From contig JAFYOF010000127.1 in NCBI GenBank assembly GCA_017560305.1, positions 1 to 41,312 on the forward strand: DNA of 41,312 bases. Direction: 5' to 3'. The stretch is from Alistipes sp. GTDB lineage: Bacteria > Bacteroidota > Bacteroidia > Bacteroidales > Rikenellaceae. This document shows positions 12,416-41,018 of the stretch, one piece after another. Numbering within the stretch: the first letter of the stretch is position 1; the number at the start of each line of letters is the position of its first letter. The notes beneath the pieces were generated by a model that saw only the letters and a program-made list of their open reading frames with translations, was not told the origin of the DNA and made no database searches. Position numbers and translations under genes: made by a program.

Positions 12416-12955
12416 TTGGAGCAGAGCGAAGATAAGGTTTGGTATGCTATGAGGGCTACCTATGGTCGAAATCTGGGGGCAAAATTCATTGCCGACAGGT
12501 TATCGATTGATAATTATATACCTATGCGCCAGGTTGTGTCGCAACGCAAGGGTGTGAAGATTCGCAAGCAGGTGCCGCTGGTGAAGGATTTGATATTTCT
12601 GCGCGCCACAAAGGAGGAGATTACCGACATCAAGCGACAGGTGACATATCTGCAGTACATCACGCGACCAGTGAACAAGAAGAACGAGCCTATCATTGTG
12701 CCCGAGGAGCAGATGCGCAGTTTTATAGACTTTACATTGAAAAATGATGAGGACCTGATCTACCTCAACCCCAGCGAAGTGGACCTGCAGGCGGGCACGC
12801 GCATCAGGATTCACGGTGGTGAGTTTGATGGTTACGAGGGTTGGTTTGTAAAGATTGCGGGCAAGCGAAACCGAAGAATTGTGGTGATGATTGACAGCAT
12901 CATAGCCGTTGCCGCACAGGTAAGTCCCGACCTTGTAGAGGTCATCAAGGATTAA
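12416..12955 (+). CDS. NusG-like transcription antiterminator, UpxY family
   Basis: A NusG paralogue that would bind RNA polymerase and promote elongation through a polysaccharide operon, as UpxY proteins do in Bacteroides capsule loci. The 179-residue product opens with the NGN motif VWYAMRATYGRN (from residue 8), continues through an NGN core and ends with a KOW domain (GTRIRIHGGEFDGYEGWFVKI). The WYAM motif lies too close to the first ATG (12449) for that to be the start, so TTG 12416 is chosen. Unlike typical UpxY genes it is not the first gene of the polysaccharide operon: it is monocistronic, on the opposite strand, with no UpxZ-like gene beside it. Its stop overlaps that of the ABC gene by the bases TTA. 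Confidence 0.85.
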   Translation: MEQSEDKVWYAMRATYGRNLGAKFIADRLSIDNYIPMRQVVSQRKGVKIRKQVPLVKDLIFLRATKEEITDIKRQVTYLQYITRPVNKKNEPIIVPEEQMRSFIDFTLKNDEDLIYLNPSEVDLQAGTRIRIHGGEFDGYEGWFVKIAGKRNRRIVVMIDSIIAVAAQVSPDLVEVIKD

Positions 12956-14594: not shown

Positions 14595-14625
14595 CAAAGG
14601 TAGGTATTTTTTGAGAATAGACAAA
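14595..14625 (-). promoter_or_regulatory. promoter of the ABC exporter gene
   Basis: On the minus strand TTTG (14622-14625), 19 bp, then TACCTTTG (14595-14602) is a full consensus match about 15 bases upstream of the ATG. The -33 box is embedded in the A-tract of the upstream porin terminator. Confidence 0.8.
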
Positions 14626-14711: not shown

Positions 14712-15875
14712 TTACTTCACGCTGATGATAGTTGCGCGGCTGAGGCGTGGATCATCGTAGAACATATTGTTCACGCCACCGTGGAACTCAACTGTGAGCT
14801 GGTCTGCATTAACACCGTACTCGTTCACGAGGCAGTTGTAAACAGCCTGTGCACGCTCCTTAGAGAGGCGGTTGTTAATCTGGTCGTTACCAGTTGCAGC
14901 GTCAGCATAACCAGAGATTGTGTAAACTACATCGTTGTTGAGGTCCTTGATAGCCTTAGCCAAGAGGCTGAGGTTCACGCGTGCCTCGTCAACAAGCTCG
15001 CTCTTGTTAATCTCGAATGTTACGAATACTGGAGCAACAACCTTAACCTGCTCCTTGCGTACCTCTGGCTTGCGGTTCTTGAGGTCAGCATTCTCCTTCT
15101 CCAAAGCTGCTACCTCACGACGCAAGTTGTCGAGTGCTGTCTGGTTAGTTGTCTCGCGAACGATTGTTGTGTTGCGATCCCAACCACGCTTGTTGAAGTT
15201 GTAAGACAAACCGAGTGTTGCGCTGAGGTTACCCTCGTGGTTACGACCACCTACCTCGCCCTCGAATGTGTCAGCCAACATACCGCCACGAACATCAAGG
15301 TAGATATCGAATCTCTCGCCCAAACGGAAAGAGTTCATAATACCTGCTGCATAAGTTACGCTCTGGTTCTTTGGCTCATCCCAAGTGCAGATCCAACCTA
15401 CACCAACATATGGCTGAATATCCCAGAAACGATCCTCACGGTAACCACCGATAATGTTCGAAAGGTTGAACATAAAGTCAACATGAGCATTAACGAAAGG
15501 ATACTGCTGGTATGTAAGCCAGTAACCGTGACCGCCCTTCTCTGGTACAGCCTCACCTGTTGAGTGAGCTCCGTTCTGAGTAGCGCCCTTATAAGAGAGA
15601 CCATGTACCATCAAACGAGTACCGATAGATGGAGTAAACCACTTACCTACTGCGATCTCATATGCAGGAGTCAAACGATCCATAAACACCAACTCCTTGT
15701 TATGGTCACCGAAATATGCCTGTGCACCAGCACCTGCCTGAATAAACCAGTTATCCCAAAAACCGTTTGTAATGAAACGATGCTTATTCTCGTCGACAAT
15801 CACCGTCTCGGTTGTCTGTGCAAAGAGTGCGTTTGCGCTCAATGCAAGAACAAAAATCATAAATAACTTCTTCAT
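14712..15875 (-). CDS. OmpA-family outer membrane porin
   Basis: An abundant-type outer membrane protein with a beta-barrel and a peptidoglycan-binding OmpA domain. The 387-residue product has a Sec signal peptide (cleavage after ANALFA, near residue 19), a barrel region about 35-230, a short coiled coil (LRREVAALEKENADLKNR), and a C-terminal OmpA domain (about 270-387). This domain has FEINKSELVDEARVNL and the helix NNRLSKERAQAVYNCL; the peptidoglycan-contacting Asp/Arg are in the SGYADAATG and NRLSKERA segments. Own promoter and terminator indicate an independent unit. Codon choice resembles rpsA, suggesting high expression. It is probably not part of the polysaccharide machinery. Confidence 0.92.
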   Translation of the reverse strand: MKKLFMIFVLALSANALFAQTTETVIVDENKHRFITNGFWDNWFIQAGAGAQAYFGDHNKELVFMDRLTPAYEIAVGKWFTPSIGTRLMVHGLSYKGATQNGAHSTGEAVPEKGGHGYWLTYQQYPFVNAHVDFMFNLSNIIGGYREDRFWDIQPYVGVGWICTWDEPKNQSVTYAAGIMNSFRLGERFDIYLDVRGGMLADTFEGEVGGRNHEGNLSATLGLSYNFNKRGWDRNTTIVRETTNQTALDNLRREVAALEKENADLKNRKPEVRKEQVKVVAPVFVTFEINKSELVDEARVNLSLLAKAIKDLNNDVVYTISGYADAATGNDQINNRLSKERAQAVYNCLVNEYGVNADQLTVEFHGGVNNMFYDDPRLSRATIISVK

Positions 15876-16100: not shown

Positions 16101-18494
16101 TTATGCTCTATTATTTCTAAATCTTGAGAATAAACCCTTCTTCTGCGTACCATAGCCGTAGCCGTAACCATAACCGCCATAACCATAGCCTCCATAGCCA
16201 TAGCCGTAACCATATCCATAACCACGGCGGTGGATATCGCTGCCGTTAAAGATAAGTGCCATATTACGAAGTTTCTTCTCCTGATAGAGTTCCTCAAGTT
16301 CTGGCAACTGACGACGGTCAAGACGACCAGCGCGCACCACAAACAATGTGATATCGGCTACACGGTTTGAAATATCGCCATCGGCAATAATTCCAAATGG
16401 CACATTATCAATAATGATAAAGTCGTAAACCTCTCGCATCTGCGCTACAAGCTCATCCAAACGCTCGCTGAGCAACAACTCCGATGGGTTTGGAGCAACC
16501 ATACCTGCAGGAACGAGGTCTACATTTGGCATAAAGTCAGTATGCAAAATATCAGTTGCTGTCAATGTTGGGTCAGCGAGATAGTTGGTCAAACCAATCT
16601 GACGACGACCCAATGACTGGCTCAATGTACCCTTACGGATATCCGCATCAATCAAAAGCACCTTCTTCTGTGCATTCGCCAAACTGCGTGCAAGGTTAGT
16701 TGTAACAAAGGTCTTACCTGCACTCTCGTTGAAAGATGTGAGTGTCAAAACCTTAAGTTCCTTTTCACCCTTGAGCATAAAGTTCATATTCGTACGAAGG
16801 ATGCGGAATGACTCAACAAGAATCTCGCTCAACTCTGGCGCAACATTGCCATCAGCAACACTCTTTGCAAAGCCCTTATCCTGAGGAATATCACCGATAA
16901 TAGGAACGCTAACTGCATTCTTGATCTCACGGCGAGAGTGAACTCGCGTATCAAGGAACATAAGCAAAAGGAACCACACCGCTGGAATCGCAAGACCAAC
17001 CAAAATACCGAGAAGAATAATGCGATTACGCATTGGCGAGATAGGCACATTGCTACCCGATGTATCTTCGATAATCTGCGCATTGGTATCCACCATCGAC
17101 TGCGTCAAGGCGTTCTCCTCACGCTTGTTTAGAAGGAAAGTATAGAGCGCCTCCTTGAGTTTCTGTTGACGCTCGATAGAGAGCATACCACGCTCCTGAC
17201 TTGGGATCTGCTGGAAACGAGCCTTCGCTCTGCGCTCGCGGCTTTGCAAATCCTCAGTCTGCGCCTCTATATTAGCAATAAGGTTGCCGATTGTTCTTAC
17301 AATTGTCTGCTTCAAAGCGTGCAGATTCTTGTTCAACTCCAAAACAACTGGGTTGTTTGTATTACCATCCTCGGCAAGTTTGTCGCGGCGCAACTTCAGC
17401 ATATTGTACTGATTGATAAGTTCCTCAGTATTTGCGCTACTCAAACCTGTATTGGCAGGGATAAGCTCTACATCCTTGGTTGGGTCTGTCAAGTAGGCGT
17501 GGATATACTTCGCAAGTTCCAACTGCGCATGCAACTCTGCTACATCCTGACTATACTTGATTGTCTCGCTCTCATAACGACCCGCGGTAGGAGCAACGCC
17601 GTTAATCATCTGGTTAGAGATCTTAAACGCCTCCAAATCCTTCTCAACGCTGCCCAAATCCTGCTCGATAATAATCAGTCGCTCGTTGATAAAGTTTGCT
17701 GTGTTGATTGCAATCTGGTTCTTATCCTTGATTGACTGCTCGTTGTAGATTGCAATAATCGTATTAAGGATATCCTCTGCCTTGATTGGCGAGTTATCCT
17801 TCAACGAGAGTTTCAGGATAGGAGCCTCCTGCTCTACCTGACGAATAGCAAAGTTAGACAGATAGTAACCCGCCATCGCATCCACAGGCACCTGTGACAC
17901 ATAGATTGGTCTATCAATCCACGACTCGTTCAGGAAGTTTGTTGGCGTAAAGCGCAACTCGCCCGCAGGCGTAGGGATTGGCTCATTCAACTTACCGACA
18001 AAGATTTCAGTCTCCGCAGCACCTGAGAAACTGCTCAACTCGATACCGCCCTCTGGCTTCAATGTCGCAACAAAATTGATTGAGCGATTCTTGCTCTCCT
18101 CGGGAACAACGAGGGTTACAGGAGAGGTTGTATAGCACTCCTCATAACGCAGGTTAGACTTAATCTTGTAGCTGATATTCGCATTCAAGCGATTGATAAC
18201 AGCACGGAAAAGGTTCTTTGACTGGAAACGATAGATCTCGTTTGTTACATTCACCTTATTGATAAGATTATCATAGCGGTCGAAACTTGCCGAGTAGCGG
18301 TTTGAACTCTCGGGGTCCTTGATGATAATCGTTGCCGTTCTGAAGTAGACAAATGGAGCGCTGGCATACTTATACCACGCCACGCCTACGCAGAGCAGGA
18401 TAGAGAGCACGAACCAGGGCCACTTTGACAAAAGATACAAAGCAAGGTCTATGAGGTTCAACTCATCTGATTTCTTATTATTTGTGGGTTTCAT
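16101..18494 (-). CDS. wzc: Wzc-like polysaccharide co-polymerase/bacterial tyrosine kinase
   Basis: An inner-membrane protein that controls chain length and export of Wzy-dependent polysaccharide by cyclic autophosphorylation. The 797-residue product has a Wzz domain with membrane helices near residues 29-55 and 500-525, a periplasmic coiled-coil region (270-460), and a C-terminal BY-kinase. The kinase has Walker A around NESAGKT (589-595), Walker A' LLIDADIR (613-620) and Walker B IIIDNVP (693-699). The kinase ends in a Gly-Tyr repeat tail with 11 tyrosines (about 758-783), the expected autophosphorylation cluster, then TQKKGLFSRFRNNRA. The gene follows wza after 25 bases. The unusually regular tail is encoded by a hexanucleotide repeat. 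Confidence 0.94.
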   Translation of the reverse strand: MKPTNNKKSDELNLIDLALYLLSKWPWFVLSILLCVGVAWYKYASAPFVYFRTATIIIKDPESSNRYSASFDRYDNLINKVNVTNEIYRFQSKNLFRAVINRLNANISYKIKSNLRYEECYTTSPVTLVVPEESKNRSINFVATLKPEGGIELSSFSGAAETEIFVGKLNEPIPTPAGELRFTPTNFLNESWIDRPIYVSQVPVDAMAGYYLSNFAIRQVEQEAPILKLSLKDNSPIKAEDILNTIIAIYNEQSIKDKNQIAINTANFINERLIIIEQDLGSVEKDLEAFKISNQMINGVAPTAGRYESETIKYSQDVAELHAQLELAKYIHAYLTDPTKDVELIPANTGLSSANTEELINQYNMLKLRRDKLAEDGNTNNPVVLELNKNLHALKQTIVRTIGNLIANIEAQTEDLQSRERRAKARFQQIPSQERGMLSIERQQKLKEALYTFLLNKREENALTQSMVDTNAQIIEDTSGSNVPISPMRNRIILLGILVGLAIPAVWFLLLMFLDTRVHSRREIKNAVSVPIIGDIPQDKGFAKSVADGNVAPELSEILVESFRILRTNMNFMLKGEKELKVLTLTSFNESAGKTFVTTNLARSLANAQKKVLLIDADIRKGTLSQSLGRRQIGLTNYLADPTLTATDILHTDFMPNVDLVPAGMVAPNPSELLLSERLDELVAQMREVYDFIIIDNVPFGIIADGDISNRVADITLFVVRAGRLDRRQLPELEELYQEKKLRNMALIFNGSDIHRRGYGYGYGYGYGGYGYGGYGYGYGYGTQKKGLFSRFRNNRA
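16145..16222 (-). repeat. degenerate hexanucleotide repeat encoding the Wzc Gly-Tyr tail
   Basis: About twelve imperfect copies of a 6-base unit (GGY TAY on the coding strand), interrupted by two extra Gly codons, encode the tyrosine tail. Because the unit is six bases, gain or loss of a copy stays in frame and changes only the number of tyrosines. Confidence 0.85.
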
Positions 18495-18519: not shown

Positions 18520-19311
18520 TTATCGTGTGGTGTACCACAAAATTACAGAAGCTGTACTTGCCAATGATGTAATAAGAGAGATGTACTGGATAATCTTATC
18601 CTCTGCAGATCTCTGCTTGAACTTTGGCTCGACATAAACGATATCGTTCTGCTGCAAATAATAGCAAGGAGAGTCGAAAATCTCTTTGCTCTGTATATTG
18701 TGAATAAACTTTTGACGCTTGCCATCAATCTCACGAATTACAATCACGCGATCAAGGCGAGCATTCGAAGCCAAATCACCAGCATTTGCAATAGCCTCCA
18801 GAATAGTTACTCTGTCGCCATCAACGGTATAGACACCGCTACCAACTGCACCAAGCATCACATACTTAAAGTTAAGGAACTCAACCGACACATGTGGGTC
18901 GCTGATATAATTACCCTCAACAATCTTGTTCTGGATTAACTCCTTCACATCGCCAACACGCAAGCCCTCAACCTTGAGTTTGCCAAGCATTGGGAATACG
19001 ATATAACCCTCGTTGTCAACTCGGTAGCCGAGGTCCTTTGCCGCGCCATCACGCTGCGCGCTGATATCACCACCATCGGTTGAGATATTCACGATGCCGT
19101 TCTGATTGTTGAAAGGCAACGCCAACTCGGGATTCTTGCAGCTCACCACAATACCCAATCGGTCATCGCAATGAACAATCGCCTCGTGGTTGACACTCAC
19201 ATTCAAAATCTCATCATCTGCCCAGTCTGCCAGATAAGGAATCTTCTTATGCGAGGCACAAGACGAGAGCAATGCCAATGCAAGGAAAAATAGATAAAAC
19301 TTCGTTCTCAT
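18520..19311 (-). CDS. wza: Wza-like polysaccharide export lipoprotein
   Basis: The outer-membrane export channel component for capsule/EPS. The 263-residue product has a lipoprotein signal (LSSC, Cys18), a Poly_export domain (about 35-125), and an SLBB region (VMLGAVGSGVYTVDGDRVTILEAIANAGDL, near 150-180). It ends in a hydrophobic helix (ITSLASTASVILWY), as is usual for the shorter Bacteroidetes Wza proteins that lack the long E. coli barrel helix. It lies between the HprK-like gene (33 bases upstream) and wzc (25 bases downstream) in one transcript. Confidence 0.92.
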   Translation of the reverse strand: MRTKFYLFFLALALLSSCASHKKIPYLADWADDEILNVSVNHEAIVHCDDRLGIVVSCKNPELALPFNNQNGIVNISTDGGDISAQRDGAAKDLGYRVDNEGYIVFPMLGKLKVEGLRVGDVKELIQNKIVEGNYISDPHVSVEFLNFKYVMLGAVGSGVYTVDGDRVTILEAIANAGDLASNARLDRVIVIREIDGKRQKFIHNIQSKEIFDSPCYYLQQNDIVYVEPKFKQRSAEDKIIQYISLITSLASTASVILWYTTR

Positions 19312-19344: not shown

Positions 19345-20226
19345 TTATTTCTCAATCGCTTCACGGCAAACTTGCGCCGCATCGGTGTTTGGCAGACAAT
19401 CCATCACGCCCACCTTTACCGACTGCGCTACCGCTGCCAGCGTATCACACATTTTGTTGTACAACTCATCATCGAATCTTAGCACAGCACAACTTGGCAA
19501 CATCTCCACAAATGCCTCACATCCTCGGCGGCGTGTAAAACGATTCTCTGGCGCCTGACGCAGACGCACCACGCCCTGCACCTGGGCTGAACGATTCTTG
19601 TAGCAATGGGTCTTGCCGCTCCAGGGAGAGCCGTAAACCTTCACCTCACCGCCCTCAATTCTTATCATCGGATTATCGTCGTTGAGCAACTCCGACTCCC
19701 CAAAAGCCTCCAGCCACATACGCGAATGGGTACTCTTGCCCGTGCCGCTCTTGCCGAGGAACATATAAGCCTTGTCGCCGAGTGTAACGGTTGAAGAGTG
19801 AATCGAAACGCCATCGTGCCACACTATCGCCTGACCAAATGCGATGCGGAGCAACGATGAAAGCGATGCCGCGCACATCTTGTCCTGCCAATCCAACGAC
19901 AAAAGCGCCTTGCTGAAGCGGTCGGTCAGGAACATATAGTGAGTATGCTGATGATTATCGAATGTTGTTGTGATTACATAACCACCCTCCACTCGGATGA
20001 TGGTCACGCAACCCATATCATTTACTACCTGCTCAAGCACCTCTCCAGACTCCAGGCTGGGGATAAGCTCCTCTGCCACACACTCCGCCTCAAGGATAGG
20101 TGTCTGCTCGCCCGCTTCCTCAACGCGGAAATCGCGCATAGTAGGCAGCAATGCATCAACCGCCACACCCTCGGGCACAGAGAGCATCATTGTGAGATTT
20201 GCTATATTGTAGTAGTATTTCTTCAT
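19345..20226 (-). CDS. HprK-related serine kinase-like protein
   Basis: A P-loop protein resembling the C-terminal kinase domain of HPr kinase/phosphorylase. The 293-residue product has an unrecognised N-terminal part (1-130), then VWHDGVSIHSSTVTLG leading into Walker A LGKSGTGKSTHSR (157-169) and LLNDDNP (180-186), the position of the HprK Asp-rich motif. The C-terminal section with GSPWSGKTH and AVLRFDDELYNK also fits HprK-related kinases of polysaccharide and peptide-modification clusters. No HPr or PTS gene is nearby. It is the first gene of a wza-wzc transcript with its own promoter, and follows a PqqD-like and a nucleotidyltransferase gene. The target is unknown. Confidence 0.8.
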   Translation of the reverse strand: MKKYYYNIANLTMMLSVPEGVAVDALLPTMRDFRVEEAGEQTPILEAECVAEELIPSLESGEVLEQVVNDMGCVTIIRVEGGYVITTTFDNHQHTHYMFLTDRFSKALLSLDWQDKMCAASLSSLLRIAFGQAIVWHDGVSIHSSTVTLGDKAYMFLGKSGTGKSTHSRMWLEAFGESELLNDDNPMIRIEGGEVKVYGSPWSGKTHCYKNRSAQVQGVVRLRQAPENRFTRRRGCEAFVEMLPSCAVLRFDDELYNKMCDTLAAVAQSVKVGVMDCLPNTDAAQVCREAIEK

Positions 20227-20267
20227 TCTTGCTATTTATACTCGTTTCCCTTACGATTAAGAAGTCC

Positions 20268-20298
20268 CAAAGTTACCATCTAAACTGATAAATTCCAA
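20268..20298 (-). promoter_or_regulatory. internal promoter for hprK-like/wza/wzc
   Basis: On the minus strand TTG (20296-20298), 20 bp, then TAACTTTG (20268-20275) fits the consensus, about 42 bases before the start codon. It separates the export genes from the long glycosyltransferase transcript. The 110-base gap 20227-20336 holds nothing else I can support. Confidence 0.7.
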
Positions 20299-20336
20299 CT
20301 CTCGGACTCCATTTATGTAACAATATCCCTCTATAT

Positions 20337-21434
20337 TTATCGCACCTGACCTCTCAACAAATCCACGAATATCCAAAAGGCCTCCTTTGGAGCATATCGA
20401 TAGACAAATGGGAGTTTTTTGCAAAAGGTTATAGCTGTGTTCAGTTTTCTTCTCCACGCAGAGTTTTCGGCTGCTGTTCTATCGTCGTGCTGGCATCCAA
20501 AGTTACCTGCTTGGCAAACTATTTCAAGCAAAGGATGAGCATCTTTTGCAATATCCATATAAGGCAAACTCACCTGAGGCAAACCAAGATGCTTGACTAA
20601 AAATGCGTGCAGCAACTGATTCCATCTACCTAAACCAAGTTTTTGGCAAACCTTCTGCATCTCGGTCTTATCGACCCTATCGCTCAGGCAGTAACTCGCT
20701 CGTGCCATATCGCACAACTGACGCAATCCGACACCCCAACCAAGCGCGTGCTTTAGAATATGAGTGTTTAGCATCAACAGATTAAGTACGGGCGATGGAA
20801 TTGCAATCTTCAAATCTTCTTCCGCACCGAGCAACATCGTTTCATACCCATAACTCCACACCAACTCATCCACATAACCCTGCACAAATGGGTTATGCAA
20901 ATCCGTCAAACGAGAGTGGTGCTCCACATCGAAGCCCTGCCACTTATAGATGCCTGCGCCATCGGGCATCATTGTAAATGAGCCGCTTATCCTCTTTGCG
21001 ACCTCTGCTGCCGCAGCCCACTCATCCGCCGAAAACCACAAATCGATGTCGCCCGACTCTCTGAGTGATGGCACGGCATACATCTGTGCCACGCCTTGTC
21101 CCTTCTGCAGCACGGGATGCAGACCCGCCTCACTAAAGACCTTGCATAGAGCTGCCAGCGCCTTGTTCATCTGCTCGCTGCGCCGCTCGATGGCATCCAC
21201 CTGCGCCACCCATTTCAGACCGTGCATCGTTGGCGGCATCAGGTGCTCGGGCAGATAGGATATTCCGCGATAGACTATGCCTGTCACGGTCTGCGAATGG
21301 GAAATCCTGTAGAGTTCACGCCACTGCTGCTCATCGAGTGGGAAGAGGGACATTTCATCCACCTCGCGCTCCCACAAACCAGCACGCAACAACGCCAGCA
21401 ACGCCGAAAAAACTCTATCCTTCAAGATCTTCAT
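20337..21434 (-). CDS. nucleotidyltransferase family protein (NTP_transf_5 type)
   Basis: A 365-residue protein of the uncharacterised nucleotidyltransferase group found in polysaccharide and RiPP-like loci. The polymerase-beta-type active site is visible: LQKGQG (109-114), then P-S-L-R125 and SGDIDLWF (127-134) giving the paired Asp129/Asp131. The C-terminal half is helical (HILKHALGWGVGLRQLCD). The predicted activity is transfer of a nucleotide or nucleotide-like group to a protein, sugar or small molecule; the substrate is unknown. It starts 7 bases after the PqqD-like gene, so the two are translationally linked. Confidence 0.78.
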   Translation of the reverse strand: MKILKDRVFSALLALLRAGLWEREVDEMSLFPLDEQQWRELYRISHSQTVTGIVYRGISYLPEHLMPPTMHGLKWVAQVDAIERRSEQMNKALAALCKVFSEAGLHPVLQKGQGVAQMYAVPSLRESGDIDLWFSADEWAAAAEVAKRISGSFTMMPDGAGIYKWQGFDVEHHSRLTDLHNPFVQGYVDELVWSYGYETMLLGAEEDLKIAIPSPVLNLLMLNTHILKHALGWGVGLRQLCDMARASYCLSDRVDKTEMQKVCQKLGLGRWNQLLHAFLVKHLGLPQVSLPYMDIAKDAHPLLEIVCQAGNFGCQHDDRTAAENSAWRRKLNTAITFCKKLPFVYRYAPKEAFWIFVDLLRGQVR

Positions 21435-21441
21435 CCCCCAC

Positions 21442-21711
21442 CTATTCTGTCACAAGACCGAGCTTGATCCACTCCTCAACCAGCGCCTTCACATCCTCAA
21501 TGGTCTGAGCATACTCCACCTCATACTCCTCGCAGAGATAGTTCGCCATCTGCTCCACATCCAGTTCGCCATCGCCAATGTGTTGCCAAATCTGCGCAGC
21601 GGTCTCGTTGAGCGTGTAGACATTCGTGAGATTCACCTCGCTGGCAAGCGCATCCACAAGCATATAGACGCTGCCCATCTTGCGAAGTTTAAGTTGTGAC
21701 CTTAGTTTCAT
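21442..21711 (-). CDS. PqqD family protein (RRE-type peptide-binding domain)
   Basis: An 89-residue PqqD-fold protein. PqqD domains (RiPP recognition elements) bind leader peptides and present them to modifying enzymes. The sequence shows the family pattern YTLNETAAQIWQHIGDGELDVEQM and the winged-helix continuation LCEEYEVEYAQTIEDVKALVEEWIKLGLV. It is 10 bases after the priming sugar transferase gene and 7 bases before the nucleotidyltransferase. No radical SAM enzyme or cyclase is in the window, and no obvious precursor peptide, so it may work on a different partner. Confidence 0.88.
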   Translation of the reverse strand: MKLRSQLKLRKMGSVYMLVDALASEVNLTNVYTLNETAAQIWQHIGDGELDVEQMANYLCEEYEVEYAQTIEDVKALVEEWIKLGLVTE

Positions 21712-21721
21712 TCTCTTTTCG

Positions 21722-22396
21722 TTAGAACTTCTTGCCTGTGAGGATTGACACAGCGGTCAAGAAGATGATTTTAATATCGAGCCACAATGAACGGTTGTAG
21801 AGATAGTCCAAATCCATACGCAGACGCTCCAGCATCTTCTCCATCGTGTCGGTGTAGCCGTTGTACAATGTCGCCATAGAGAACAAGCCTGGGCGCATAT
21901 TGTAAAGCAACTTGTAGTCGGGGTTGTACTCCATAATCTGGTCGATGAAGAACTGGCGCTCGGGGCGATAACCCACAAACGACATATCTCCCTTCAACAC
22001 ATTCCACAACTGCGGCAACTCATCGACATGATGGTCGCGGATGAAACGACCCACCTTTGTCAAGCGGTCATCATCGCTGCCGTTGTAGAGCTGAGGACGA
22101 CCACCGCTCTCGGCATCAATAATCATCGAGCGGAACTTGTAGAGGGTGAATGGCTTGCCCTTCATTCCGATACGCTCCTGACTAAAGATTGGGTTGCCTC
22201 CATCCTCAAGTTTGATTGCAATCCATATAATCAGACATACGGGTGAGAACACCAGCAGTCCGACAATGGCTGCGAAGAGGTCAAACGAGCGTTTGATAAA
22301 CGCCGCCAACCACGAATACTTAATCTGCTTGTCCGCGGCATTCCCACTGCCTGCACAAGCAACTCTTTCTTCCGTTACCTTAATCCCTTTTTCCAT
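21722..22396 (-). CDS. initiating phosphoglycosyl transferase (WcaJ/WbaP-like, short form)
   Basis: Starts the polysaccharide repeat by moving a sugar-phosphate from a UDP-sugar to undecaprenyl phosphate at the inner membrane. The 224-residue monotopic enzyme has one hydrophobic re-entrant segment (about 39-62, FDLFAAIVGLLVFSPVCLIIWIAIKL), then KFRSM (87-91), the catalytic pair region DELPQLWNVLKGDMSFVG (125-142) and YRPER (143-147). It lacks the N-terminal multi-helix domain of full-length WcaJ, as is usual in Bacteroidetes. The first sugar cannot be read from sequence. It follows a GT4 gene by 2 bases and is followed by the PqqD gene. Confidence 0.93.
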   Translation of the reverse strand: MEKGIKVTEERVACAGSGNAADKQIKYSWLAAFIKRSFDLFAAIVGLLVFSPVCLIIWIAIKLEDGGNPIFSQERIGMKGKPFTLYKFRSMIIDAESGGRPQLYNGSDDDRLTKVGRFIRDHHVDELPQLWNVLKGDMSFVGYRPERQFFIDQIMEYNPDYKLLYNMRPGLFSMATLYNGYTDTMEKMLERLRMDLDYLYNRSLWLDIKIIFLTAVSILTGKKF

Positions 22397-39118: not shown

Positions 39119-39547
39119 TTACCCGAACAGCCGCTGCCAGAGGGAAGGTTTCTGGGGGCGGAGGGGGGTGAGGGAGTTATCGGAGAGGAATTTTTCGTAG
39201 CTGATGCCGCGGGAGATCATCTCGTAGATGACGCCCCAGTCGGGCAGGCCGCCGACATTGCGGTCGTCGATGAACATATCGGCCTTGAGCTTGCGGCTGC
39301 GGATGGCGCTCTGGTCGACATCCTCGTCGGGGTAGTTGCTATTGACTGCAAAAAAGTCAACTCCGCGCTTGTGACAAAACTCAACTGCCTCCTGCAGCAG
39401 TCGACCCTCGCGGCAACTCCACAAAATCAGTCGATGACCATCGTCCTGAAGTTGTTTCAAGGTTGCAATCGCAAACGGGATTTCCTTGCCGATAGATGGA
39501 TATTTATGCTCCACTATCGTACCATCAAAATCTACGGCTATAATCAT
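39119..39547 (-). CDS. HAD superfamily phosphatase-like protein, first gene of the polysaccharide operon
   Basis: A 142-residue HAD-fold protein resembling a small Bacteroidetes hydrolase group. The nucleophile motif is IIAVDFDGTIVEH (Asp6, Asp8), motif II is LILWSCREG, and the late acidic motif is MFIDDRNVGGLPD. The lack of a cap domain suggests a phosphatase with a macromolecular or small sugar-phosphate substrate. It is the promoter-proximal gene of the capsule transcript. The final residues (PSLWQRLFG) form an amphipathic tail. Its role in polysaccharide synthesis is inferred from location. Confidence 0.82.
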   Translation of the reverse strand: MIIAVDFDGTIVEHKYPSIGKEIPFAIATLKQLQDDGHRLILWSCREGRLLQEAVEFCHKRGVDFFAVNSNYPDEDVDQSAIRSRKLKADMFIDDRNVGGLPDWGVIYEMISRGISYEKFLSDNSLTPLRPQKPSLWQRLFG

Positions 39548-40135: not shown

Positions 40136-40621
40136 ATGAGAAGTGAAGAACTGAACAGAGAATTTCTTGCCATCAAGGATACGGCATATCGCTATGCCGT
40201 GAGCCTGCTCCACGACCCTGTTTGGGCAGAGGATGCCACGCAGGACCTCTACGAAAAACTATGGCGGCGACGGCTATTTATAAGAGAAGGTACATTTCGC
40301 CAGTTGGCGATGGTGAGCATCCGCAACATCTGCCTCGACCTGATGCGCGAGCGGGAGCGCAGACGGCAGAGTGAGCCACCGCAACACATTGCGGCAACAA
40401 CAAATGAGGATAGTGAACTCATACAGATGGTCGGCAAGATAATAGCCACGCTGCCCGAGCGCGAGAGGGAGGTGATTCACCTGCACGACTGCGAGGGGTT
40501 GGGCTACGGCGAGATAGCCGAGATAATTGACTCGAGCGAGAGCGCCGCGCGAATGGCGTGCAGCCGAGCACGACAAAAGGTAAAAGAGGAACTTATAAAG
40601 GTGATGAATTATGGAGTATAA
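40136..40621 (+). CDS. ECF-type RNA polymerase sigma factor
   Basis: A 161-residue sigma-70 family, extracytoplasmic-function type regulator. Region 2 is AYRYAVSLLHDPVWAEDATQDLYEKLWRRR (about residues 17-46) and region 4 is LPEREREVIHLHDCEGLGYGEIAEIIDSSESAARMACSRARQKVKEEL (about 107-155). Its stop overlaps the start of the next gene by 11 bases, coupling it to the membrane-anchored partner. Target genes are unknown; the secreted protein downstream is a candidate. Confidence 0.92.
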   Translation: MRSEELNREFLAIKDTAYRYAVSLLHDPVWAEDATQDLYEKLWRRRLFIREGTFRQLAMVSIRNICLDLMRERERRRQSEPPQHIAATTNEDSELIQMVGKIIATLPEREREVIHLHDCEGLGYGEIAEIIDSSESAARMACSRARQKVKEELIKVMNYGV

Positions 40622-41018
40622 GGATTTAATGCAACGATACTGGCAGGCGCAGACCAACGCCGCCGAGGAGCAGGAGTTGCGCGAGCAACTGCTCCAGAAC
40701 ACCTCACCCACCGCCGAGGAACGCGCCGCACGAGCGATGATGATGCACGCCGCAGCGCCGCAACAGAGCGTACGCATAAGACTCCACCAGCCGACATCCC
40801 GCATTTGGCAGATGGCATTGGCTACGGGACTTTGCGCGCTCATTATCGGCATAACGATAATGCTCAAACAGCCAACCATTTACGGCTACTACAACGGCGA
40901 GCCTATCACCTCGCTTGCCGAGGCGCAGTACCACGCCGACAAGATTTTTGCCAACCTCGCCCAGACGGAGATTCCCACCGACGAGGAGTTGATTGAAAAA
41001 CTATTTAGATTGGAATAA
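40611..41018 (+). CDS. short membrane-anchored anti-sigma-like protein
   Basis: A 135-residue protein with a cytoplasmic helical N-terminus (MEYKDLMQRYWQAQTNAAEE...LREQLLQN), one membrane helix (about residues 66-86, MALATGLCALIIGITIML), and a short periplasmic tail ending in an acidic helix (DEELIEKLFRLE). Position and overlap with the ECF sigma gene, plus topology, fit an anti-sigma factor. No zinc-binding HXXXC motif or FecR domain is seen, so the family is not recognised. Confidence 0.75.
   Translation: MEYKDLMQRYWQAQTNAAEEQELREQLLQNTSPTAEERAARAMMMHAAAPQQSVRIRLHQPTSRIWQMALATGLCALIIGITIMLKQPTIYGYYNGEPITSLAEAQYHADKIFANLAQTEIPTDEELIEKLFRLE

Follow-up and report, generated by a model that had tools for sequence, protein, structure and literature searches.

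A PqqD-nucleotidyltransferase-kinase trio in an Alistipes capsule locus: putative core of a peptide-phosphorylation pathway in Bacteroidota

What could enzymes of peptide modification be doing in a capsule locus? The question is raised by a stretch of 41,312 nucleotides from Alistipes sp. (contig JAFYOF010000127.1; the whole stretch is called the window below). Between 22.4 and 13 kb, read along its minus strand, genes for a priming sugar transferase, a PqqD-family protein, an NTP_transf_5 nucleotidyltransferase, a P-loop kinase, Wza, Wzc, an OmpA-family protein and an MsbA-type ABC exporter follow one another (Table 1). Domain matches thus confirm what an earlier note on this DNA, made from the letters alone, had described: PqqD, nucleotidyltransferase and HprK-like kinase genes between the priming sugar transferase and wza/wzc. 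Beyond the trio, upstream, glycosyltransferases, acyltransferases and a flippase-type protein are encoded, and the locus is therefore a polysaccharide locus. By analogy to a system described in Bacillota, we propose that the trio is probably the catalytic core of a peptide-phosphorylation pathway guided by a RiPP (ribosomally synthesized and post-translationally modified peptide) recognition element (RRE), with precursors encoded in trans.

The system that matches best is that of the Linear Polyphosphorylated Peptides (LPP; genes lppA, K, B, S, D and N) of Popov et al. 2026. According to that paper (PMC13381572), its core set comprises a SipW-like peptidase, a discrete RRE, an HprK-like kinase, an NTP transferase and an MsbA-like exporter; it was first met in capsule loci and often stands beside capsule loci of Bacilli. 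The LPP leader carries the motif YxxPxVLxHQxIxFETxxS, cleavage falls after the T, the core begins with AQS and Ser 3 is polyphosphorylated; discrete RREs of the lasso and LPP types bind the YxxP motif (PMC13381572). Discrete RRE, HprK-like kinase, NTP transferase and MsbA-like exporter all occur in the window, and its relatives add a SipW-like peptidase, a YxxP leader, a short variable core and frequent placement in capsule loci, no B2 leader peptidase being found. We count the exporter among the module genes because it shares 62% identity with the ABC gene that occupies the equivalent position in the related locus L001 and 47% with the module ABC gene of L053; the MsbA equivalog model gave it 215.9 bits, under the cut-off of 602. 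The three-gene module proposed earlier therefore stands in that an RRE accompanies peptide-modifying enzymes, but the set is larger, with the ABC exporter in the window and an S24/S26 peptidase and precursors in relatives. LPPs were found in Bacillota, whereas the present module is in Bacteroidota: the authors' discussion restricts LPPs to Bacillota, and their results place the peptidase cluster predominantly there (PMC13381572). Among the open-licence papers listed in literature searches, no title dealt with such a system in Bacteroidota; the available parts of a Bacteroidales RiPP survey (PMC10352776) do not mention S24 or nucleotidyltransferase, nor do those of two RRE-mining papers (PMC7470986, PMC12710340) mention Bacteroid or kinase.

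A profile of the kinase, scanned against genome contigs, matched at least 590 loci, and the best 80 were analysed. PqqD lay within 5 kb of the kinase in 73 of these and the nucleotidyltransferase in 41; beside Wza or Wzc (34 loci) the counts were 34 and 33, so that the co-occurrence on which the earlier note made its proposal depend is found in other genomes, 33 of the 34 loci holding both partners. Two architectures were apparent. One is the capsule type that the window shows; in the other, the kinase is followed by a gene of about 150 codons, PqqD and, in some loci, nucleotidyltransferase and ABC genes. The order priming enzyme-PqqD-nucleotidyltransferase-kinase-Wza-Wzc is strongly conserved, the priming sugar transferase standing immediately 5' of PqqD in many Bacteroidales capsule-type loci, and several Sphingobacterium loci carry the peptidase and ABC genes within the capsule-type block itself. 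In a tree of 81 kinases (all 80 loci and the window, none dropped), the capsule-locus kinases clustered, with 4 label changes versus 26.4 on shuffling, and the window paired with L001, from an Alistipes metagenome-assembled genome (support 100/99). Module genes are sometimes apart; in genome G334 the kinase lies about 97 kb from PqqD and nucleotidyltransferase. One contig filed as Rickettsiales (L003) bears a Bacteroidales-type capsule module whose kinase groups with Bacteroides, and is probably mis-binned. In a phylum-wide sample of 247 genomes, the kinase profile matched 35 at E <= 0.001, only 2 of them strongly (E < 1e-50), and the statistics given here therefore rest on order-wide and family samples. 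Order-wide, PqqD was present in 20/20 kinase-positive and 163/275 other genomes, the nucleotidyltransferase in 19/20 and 76/275.

Is the PqqD protein of a kind that could hold such a leader? Its residues N35 and D73 are invariant among 23 module PqqDs, and in a HMMER alignment to LppB (9x8z) they fall on N33 and D70, numbers that we matched ourselves to the residues named in the source; in the LppB crystal structure, N33 and D70 bond the leader backbone around Pro and the leader Tyr (PMC13381572). When the profile of the 23 module PqqDs was compared with the PDB, four sequences were matched at E <= 0.1, all of them lasso or LPP RREs. The window sequence by itself also gave chance matches, the top one being a clamp protein with no stretch passing individually.

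The best NCBIfam models for this protein are likewise lasso RREs, below their cut-off (33.5 versus 70 bits), which together with the shared RRE, kinase and nucleotidyltransferase families would suit a tailoring cassette for lasso peptides of the paeninodin or pseudomycoidin type (PadeK, PsmK, PsmN), systems that, according to a review, combine an RRE, an HprK-like kinase with a His-Lys-Asp-Asp set and a nucleotidyltransferase (PMC9266682). Against this, the B2 leader peptidase (PF13471) occurred in 0/35 kinase-positive genomes; among 14 control genomes, 2 were positive. No macrolactam cyclase (Asn synthase-like) was seen among 28 window proteins scanned with Pfam, a genome-wide search not being part of that scan. 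Moreover, the phosphorylated Ser is C-terminal in those lasso peptides (PMC9266682), whereas the conserved Ser follows the leader here. We regard a lasso cassette as very improbable.

The kinase residues H143, K164, D183 and D184 are invariant in 32 sequences; matched by description, they are candidate equivalents of the His-Lys-Asp-Asp set of the lasso-tailoring kinases (PMC9266682). PEPCK aligns along the entire kinase model. Fold and P-loop are shared with PEPCK and with HPr kinase/phosphorylase, but no HprK Pfam model matched the window kinase at E up to 0.1, and the family has a conserved YGxPWSGKTxCY block of its own. In the earlier note, the kinase and PqqD had been likened to a grouping named an HPr-related system. 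The HPr-rel-A system does pair a PqqD-like with an HprK-like protein, and TIGR04352 and TIGR04353 match weakly, but both fall far under the NCBIfam cut-offs (kinase 13.3 versus 200 bits, PqqD 19.1 versus 35 bits); that identification is abandoned, and an HPr-rel-A system seems to us extremely improbable. What survives of the earlier idea that the trio modifies a peptide or protein is the company of an RRE with peptide-modifying enzymes, with phosphorylation as the best-supported chemistry.

In the nucleotidyltransferase, K111, G128, D129, D131 and E171 are invariant across 33 sequences. Its AlphaFold2 model had a pLDDT of 88.4, and the sole Foldseek match at E <= 0.001 was a weak one to the nucleotidyltransferase-like 5uvd (E 3e-4). 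One homolog, P0123 (550 residues), contains a near-exact internal repeat of about 180 residues that resembles an assembly artefact. As to function, LppN had no visible effect in a heterologous host and deletion of the NTP transferase changed nothing visible (PMC13381572); PsmN has been linked to hexose addition in pseudomycoidin (PMC9266682).

The gene of about 150 codons beside PqqD, which we had considered as a lasso B2 peptidase, proved in the members scanned to encode an S24/S26, SipW-like peptidase: Peptidase_S24 and signal-peptidase models matched, mostly weakly, one member had no Pfam match, and Ser, His and Asp were invariant in a ten-row alignment. A profile of this peptidase matched 54 of the 80 kinase loci. 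To quantify the association, we used 81 genomes from the family to which G001, the source of L001, belongs (Rikenellaceae according to the kinase tree), with cut-offs of E <= 1e-15 for the kinase, 1e-8 for the peptidase and 0.01 for the peptide profile A4 introduced below. The kinase was present in 25 genomes, and the peptidase in exactly those 25 and in 0/56 others; in 22 of the 25, no more than 5 kb separates it from a kinase. A distinct protein of about 150 residues is encoded directly 5' of the kinase in a number of Prevotella-type loci (L032:9564-9995, L044:1105-1566, L071:9499-10008 and others); one member (L060) had no Pfam match. It was considered as a precursor; it has a signal-peptide-like start and was seen in that subset alone.

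A conserved fourth small gene, for which the earlier note had advised a search, does exist in relatives. In a number of loci a small open reading frame (ORF) of 57-73 codons lies 3' of Wzc, with a common head, a variable acidic tail and the signature YxxP...ExG[IF]AxS. Profiles A3 and, later, A4 were built from 19 and 29 peptides, all chosen for likeness, and in every one of them Tyr, Pro and Glu are unchanged. AxS commonly follows ExG[IF], in counts whose pattern demanded P and an E and so fixed the frequencies of these two by construction; it resembles the AQS of LPP, the Ser being near the leader/core junction in both. In 62 peptide ORFs, a Ser stands at positions 19-22 (leader Tyr = 1) in 59, and the tails (median length 26) hold 379 acidic versus 59 basic residues. 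Compared with the PDB, the peptide profile gave nothing significant; its top row, at E 0.62, belongs to the leader of the lasso precursor TfuA.

Such a peptide ORF (E <= 0.1) flanks 24 of the 80 kinase loci, 20 of them among the 33 with a labelled Wzc. This count bears on a reading in which PqqD would present a capsule protein, namely the priming enzyme, Wza or Wzc, to kinase and nucleotidyltransferase, whose modification would tune polysaccharide assembly, while the peptides serve other copies. The strongly conserved gene order, the clustering of capsule-locus kinases on the tree and a window that lacks a peptide all speak for it; the peptides beside Wzc and the fit of the RRE residues to a YxxP leader pocket speak against it, and we consider such a capsule regulator unlikely.

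At the level of whole genomes, A3 was found in 10/20 kinase-positive and 0/20 kinase-negative genomes of a set of 40, and in 18/25 versus 3/56 genomes of the family sample. With A4 the family counts were 23/25 versus 1/56 (G569), and 20/22 versus 1/56 after removal of the three family genomes that had contributed to the profile (p about 2e-15, uncorrected for kinship). In the order-wide sample, which includes the A4 contributors G001 and G504, 12/20 kinase-positive and 5/275 other genomes matched.

The peptides are not all neighbours of the kinase. The cis arrangement is seen, for example, in locus L026 of Bacteroides mediterraneensis, but in G001, G618, G591 and others the majority of peptide genes are distant from it or on different contigs. 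Loci L092, L098 and L100 were left out of further analysis. We examined 36 regions around profile matches, of which 35 contain 37 peptide ORFs at E <= 0.01. After 36 of the 37, a same-strand ORF of at least 100 codons starts -60 to +200 bp from the stop; 34 of these 36 match a lipobox pattern, a loose one that also matches 62/183 ORFs of at least 150 codons in the same loci, and the other two look like lipoproteins by eye. Pairing is weak at L085, which a contig end cuts, and at L087. Ten paired lipoproteins that were scanned differ from one another, carrying leucine-rich repeats (LRR; BspA type or DUF285), BACON, CBM26 or no convincing Pfam domain. Frequent dispersal over the genome and lipoprotein partners set these precursors apart from those of LPP. 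They would also suit a reading in which the peptides travel with kinase genes for some other reason, such as their lipoprotein partners, the trio modifying something else: all linkage is co-occurrence, and the peptide genes of the G001 family are mostly found beside lipoprotein genes on contigs other than that of the kinase. On the other side, the peptides bear the YxxP motif that discrete lasso and LPP RREs bind (PMC13381572), and within one family their presence closely tracks kinase plus peptidase. That the peptides are not substrates appears to us improbable.

Where, then, would the window copy find its precursor? The lack of a clear precursor peptide that the earlier note remarked upon was borne out: neither of two profiles nor a motif scan revealed one in the window, the best profile matches being E 0.27, which falls within a glycosyltransferase frame, and 5.6 with the second profile. 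In a comparison with G001, which covers L001 and L081 and leaves aside the stretch between them, most window genes between the ABC exporter and about 32 kb had a match in L001, and a further match, to L081 with 78% identity, was found at window positions 39119-39547. Just past the counterpart of 39119-39547, G001 has a peptide gene and then a gene for a lipoprotein of 802 residues; a G001-type peptide is encoded at L081:5181-5369. At that site the window holds, at 40136-41018 (plus strand), a sigma-70-type gene recognized by Pfam and a small gene without Pfam family. G001 also has a second, scattered set, with kinase and peptidase on one contig and PqqD and nucleotidyltransferase on two others. 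As the window lacks peptidase and precursor, and G001 has both a peptide pair at the capsule edge and this second set, we infer that the window copy is dedicated to the capsule, with precursor and peptidase presumably encoded in the source genome outside the 41 kb.

Several observations weigh against a peptide-phosphorylation pathway of the LPP kind. In the window, both the precursor and the SipW-like peptidase (profile search, best E 0.1) are absent, and a sigma-70-type gene stands at the capsule-locus edge where G001 has its peptide gene. Where no Wzc is labelled, just 4 of 47 kinase loci have a flank peptide, and no peptide was detected in the kinase-positive family genomes G589 and G616 or in 8 of the 20 kinase-positive genomes of the order-wide sample. 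The linkage of kinase, peptide and peptidase is correlational. Finally, the peptides of relatives keep YxxP and the Ser without the HQ and FET of the full LPP leader motif, and the module RRE profile is nearer to the lasso RRE TfuB1 (E 4e-7) than to LppB (E 0.017). For these last two reasons we do not file the system as a member of LPP, although it would work like one.

The predicted sequence of events is as follows. The PqqD protein would grip the YxxP leader of a small peptide, and the PEPCK/HprK-type kinase would phosphorylate the widely conserved Ser where leader and core meet (ExG[IF]AxS). Onto the phosphate the NTP_transf_5 enzyme may put a further group. The SipW-like S24/S26 peptidase, encoded elsewhere, would cut off the leader, probably immediately in front of AxS, and the peptide would leave the cell through the ABC exporter. 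Leader binding, the Ser and the cleavage site are predicted because of the LPP parallels, namely the conserved Tyr, Pro and Glu, the AxS, and the position of N35 and D73 on N33 and D70 of LppB.

Table 1. Genes of the trio and their neighbours in the window.
Feature	Position	Strand	Basis
Priming sugar transferase (context)	21722..22396	-	PF02397
PqqD-family discrete RRE, LppB-like, 89 aa	21442..21711	-	PF05402, 55 bits
NTP_transf_5 nucleotidyltransferase, LppN/PsmN-like, 365 aa	20337..21434	-	PF14907, 118.9 bits
PEPCK/HprK-fold P-loop kinase, LppK-like, 293 aa	19345..20226	-	7264/8000 scored candidates match; fold match
Wza-type export lipoprotein (context)	18520..19311	-	PF02563
Wzc-type tyrosine autokinase (context)	16101..18494	-	TIGR01007, 149.6 bits versus cut-off 108.05
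OmpA-family outer-membrane protein, between Wzc and exporter	14712..15875	-	PF00691
MsbA-type ABC exporter, LppD-like, 542 aa	12952..14580	-	PF00664 + PF00005

Among the neighbours, Wzc has a long C-terminal tail rich in Tyr and Gly, a feature shared by most of the Wzc proteins listed for relatives. An OmpA gene comes immediately after Wzc in L001, L004 and L015 as well; in L007 and others it stands farther downstream. Tail to tail with the ABC exporter, and overlapping it by 4 bases, lies a NusG-type (UpxY-like) antiterminator gene (12416-12955, plus strand, PF02357). It had also been proposed that a promoter at 20268-20298 splits the trio over two transcripts. With the consensus applied here the split gains no support, the pattern being not above chance: 3 matches in the window versus 1.09 expected, with 3 or more reached in 8 of 100 shuffles. 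The TTTG form is enriched (6 versus 1.16 expected), yet it is absent from the site of the supposed split. One match to TTTG-N19-TAnnTTTG lies just 5' of the ABC exporter (14595-14625, minus strand), which, given the enrichment across the window, may have its own promoter.

A more tentative picture, which we hold to be possible but doubtful, would join the two kinds of copy: many Bacteroidota would phosphorylate peptides genome-wide, one set of RRE, kinase, peptidase and exporter serving several dispersed peptides, one per operon, with each transcript also encoding a different surface lipoprotein (LRR, BACON, CBM or other), and would in addition keep a dedicated capsule copy whose phosphopeptide, perhaps sugar-bearing, decorates or anchors the polysaccharide. 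If the proposed pathway is real, one that was called restricted to Bacillota in 2026 would extend into Bacteroidota, and a family of candidate precursors would gain a predicted phospho-Ser and cleavage site. A peptide-modifying pathway would also be tied to capsule export and surface lipoproteins, and what the PqqD, nucleotidyltransferase and kinase genes do in capsule loci would become a testable question.

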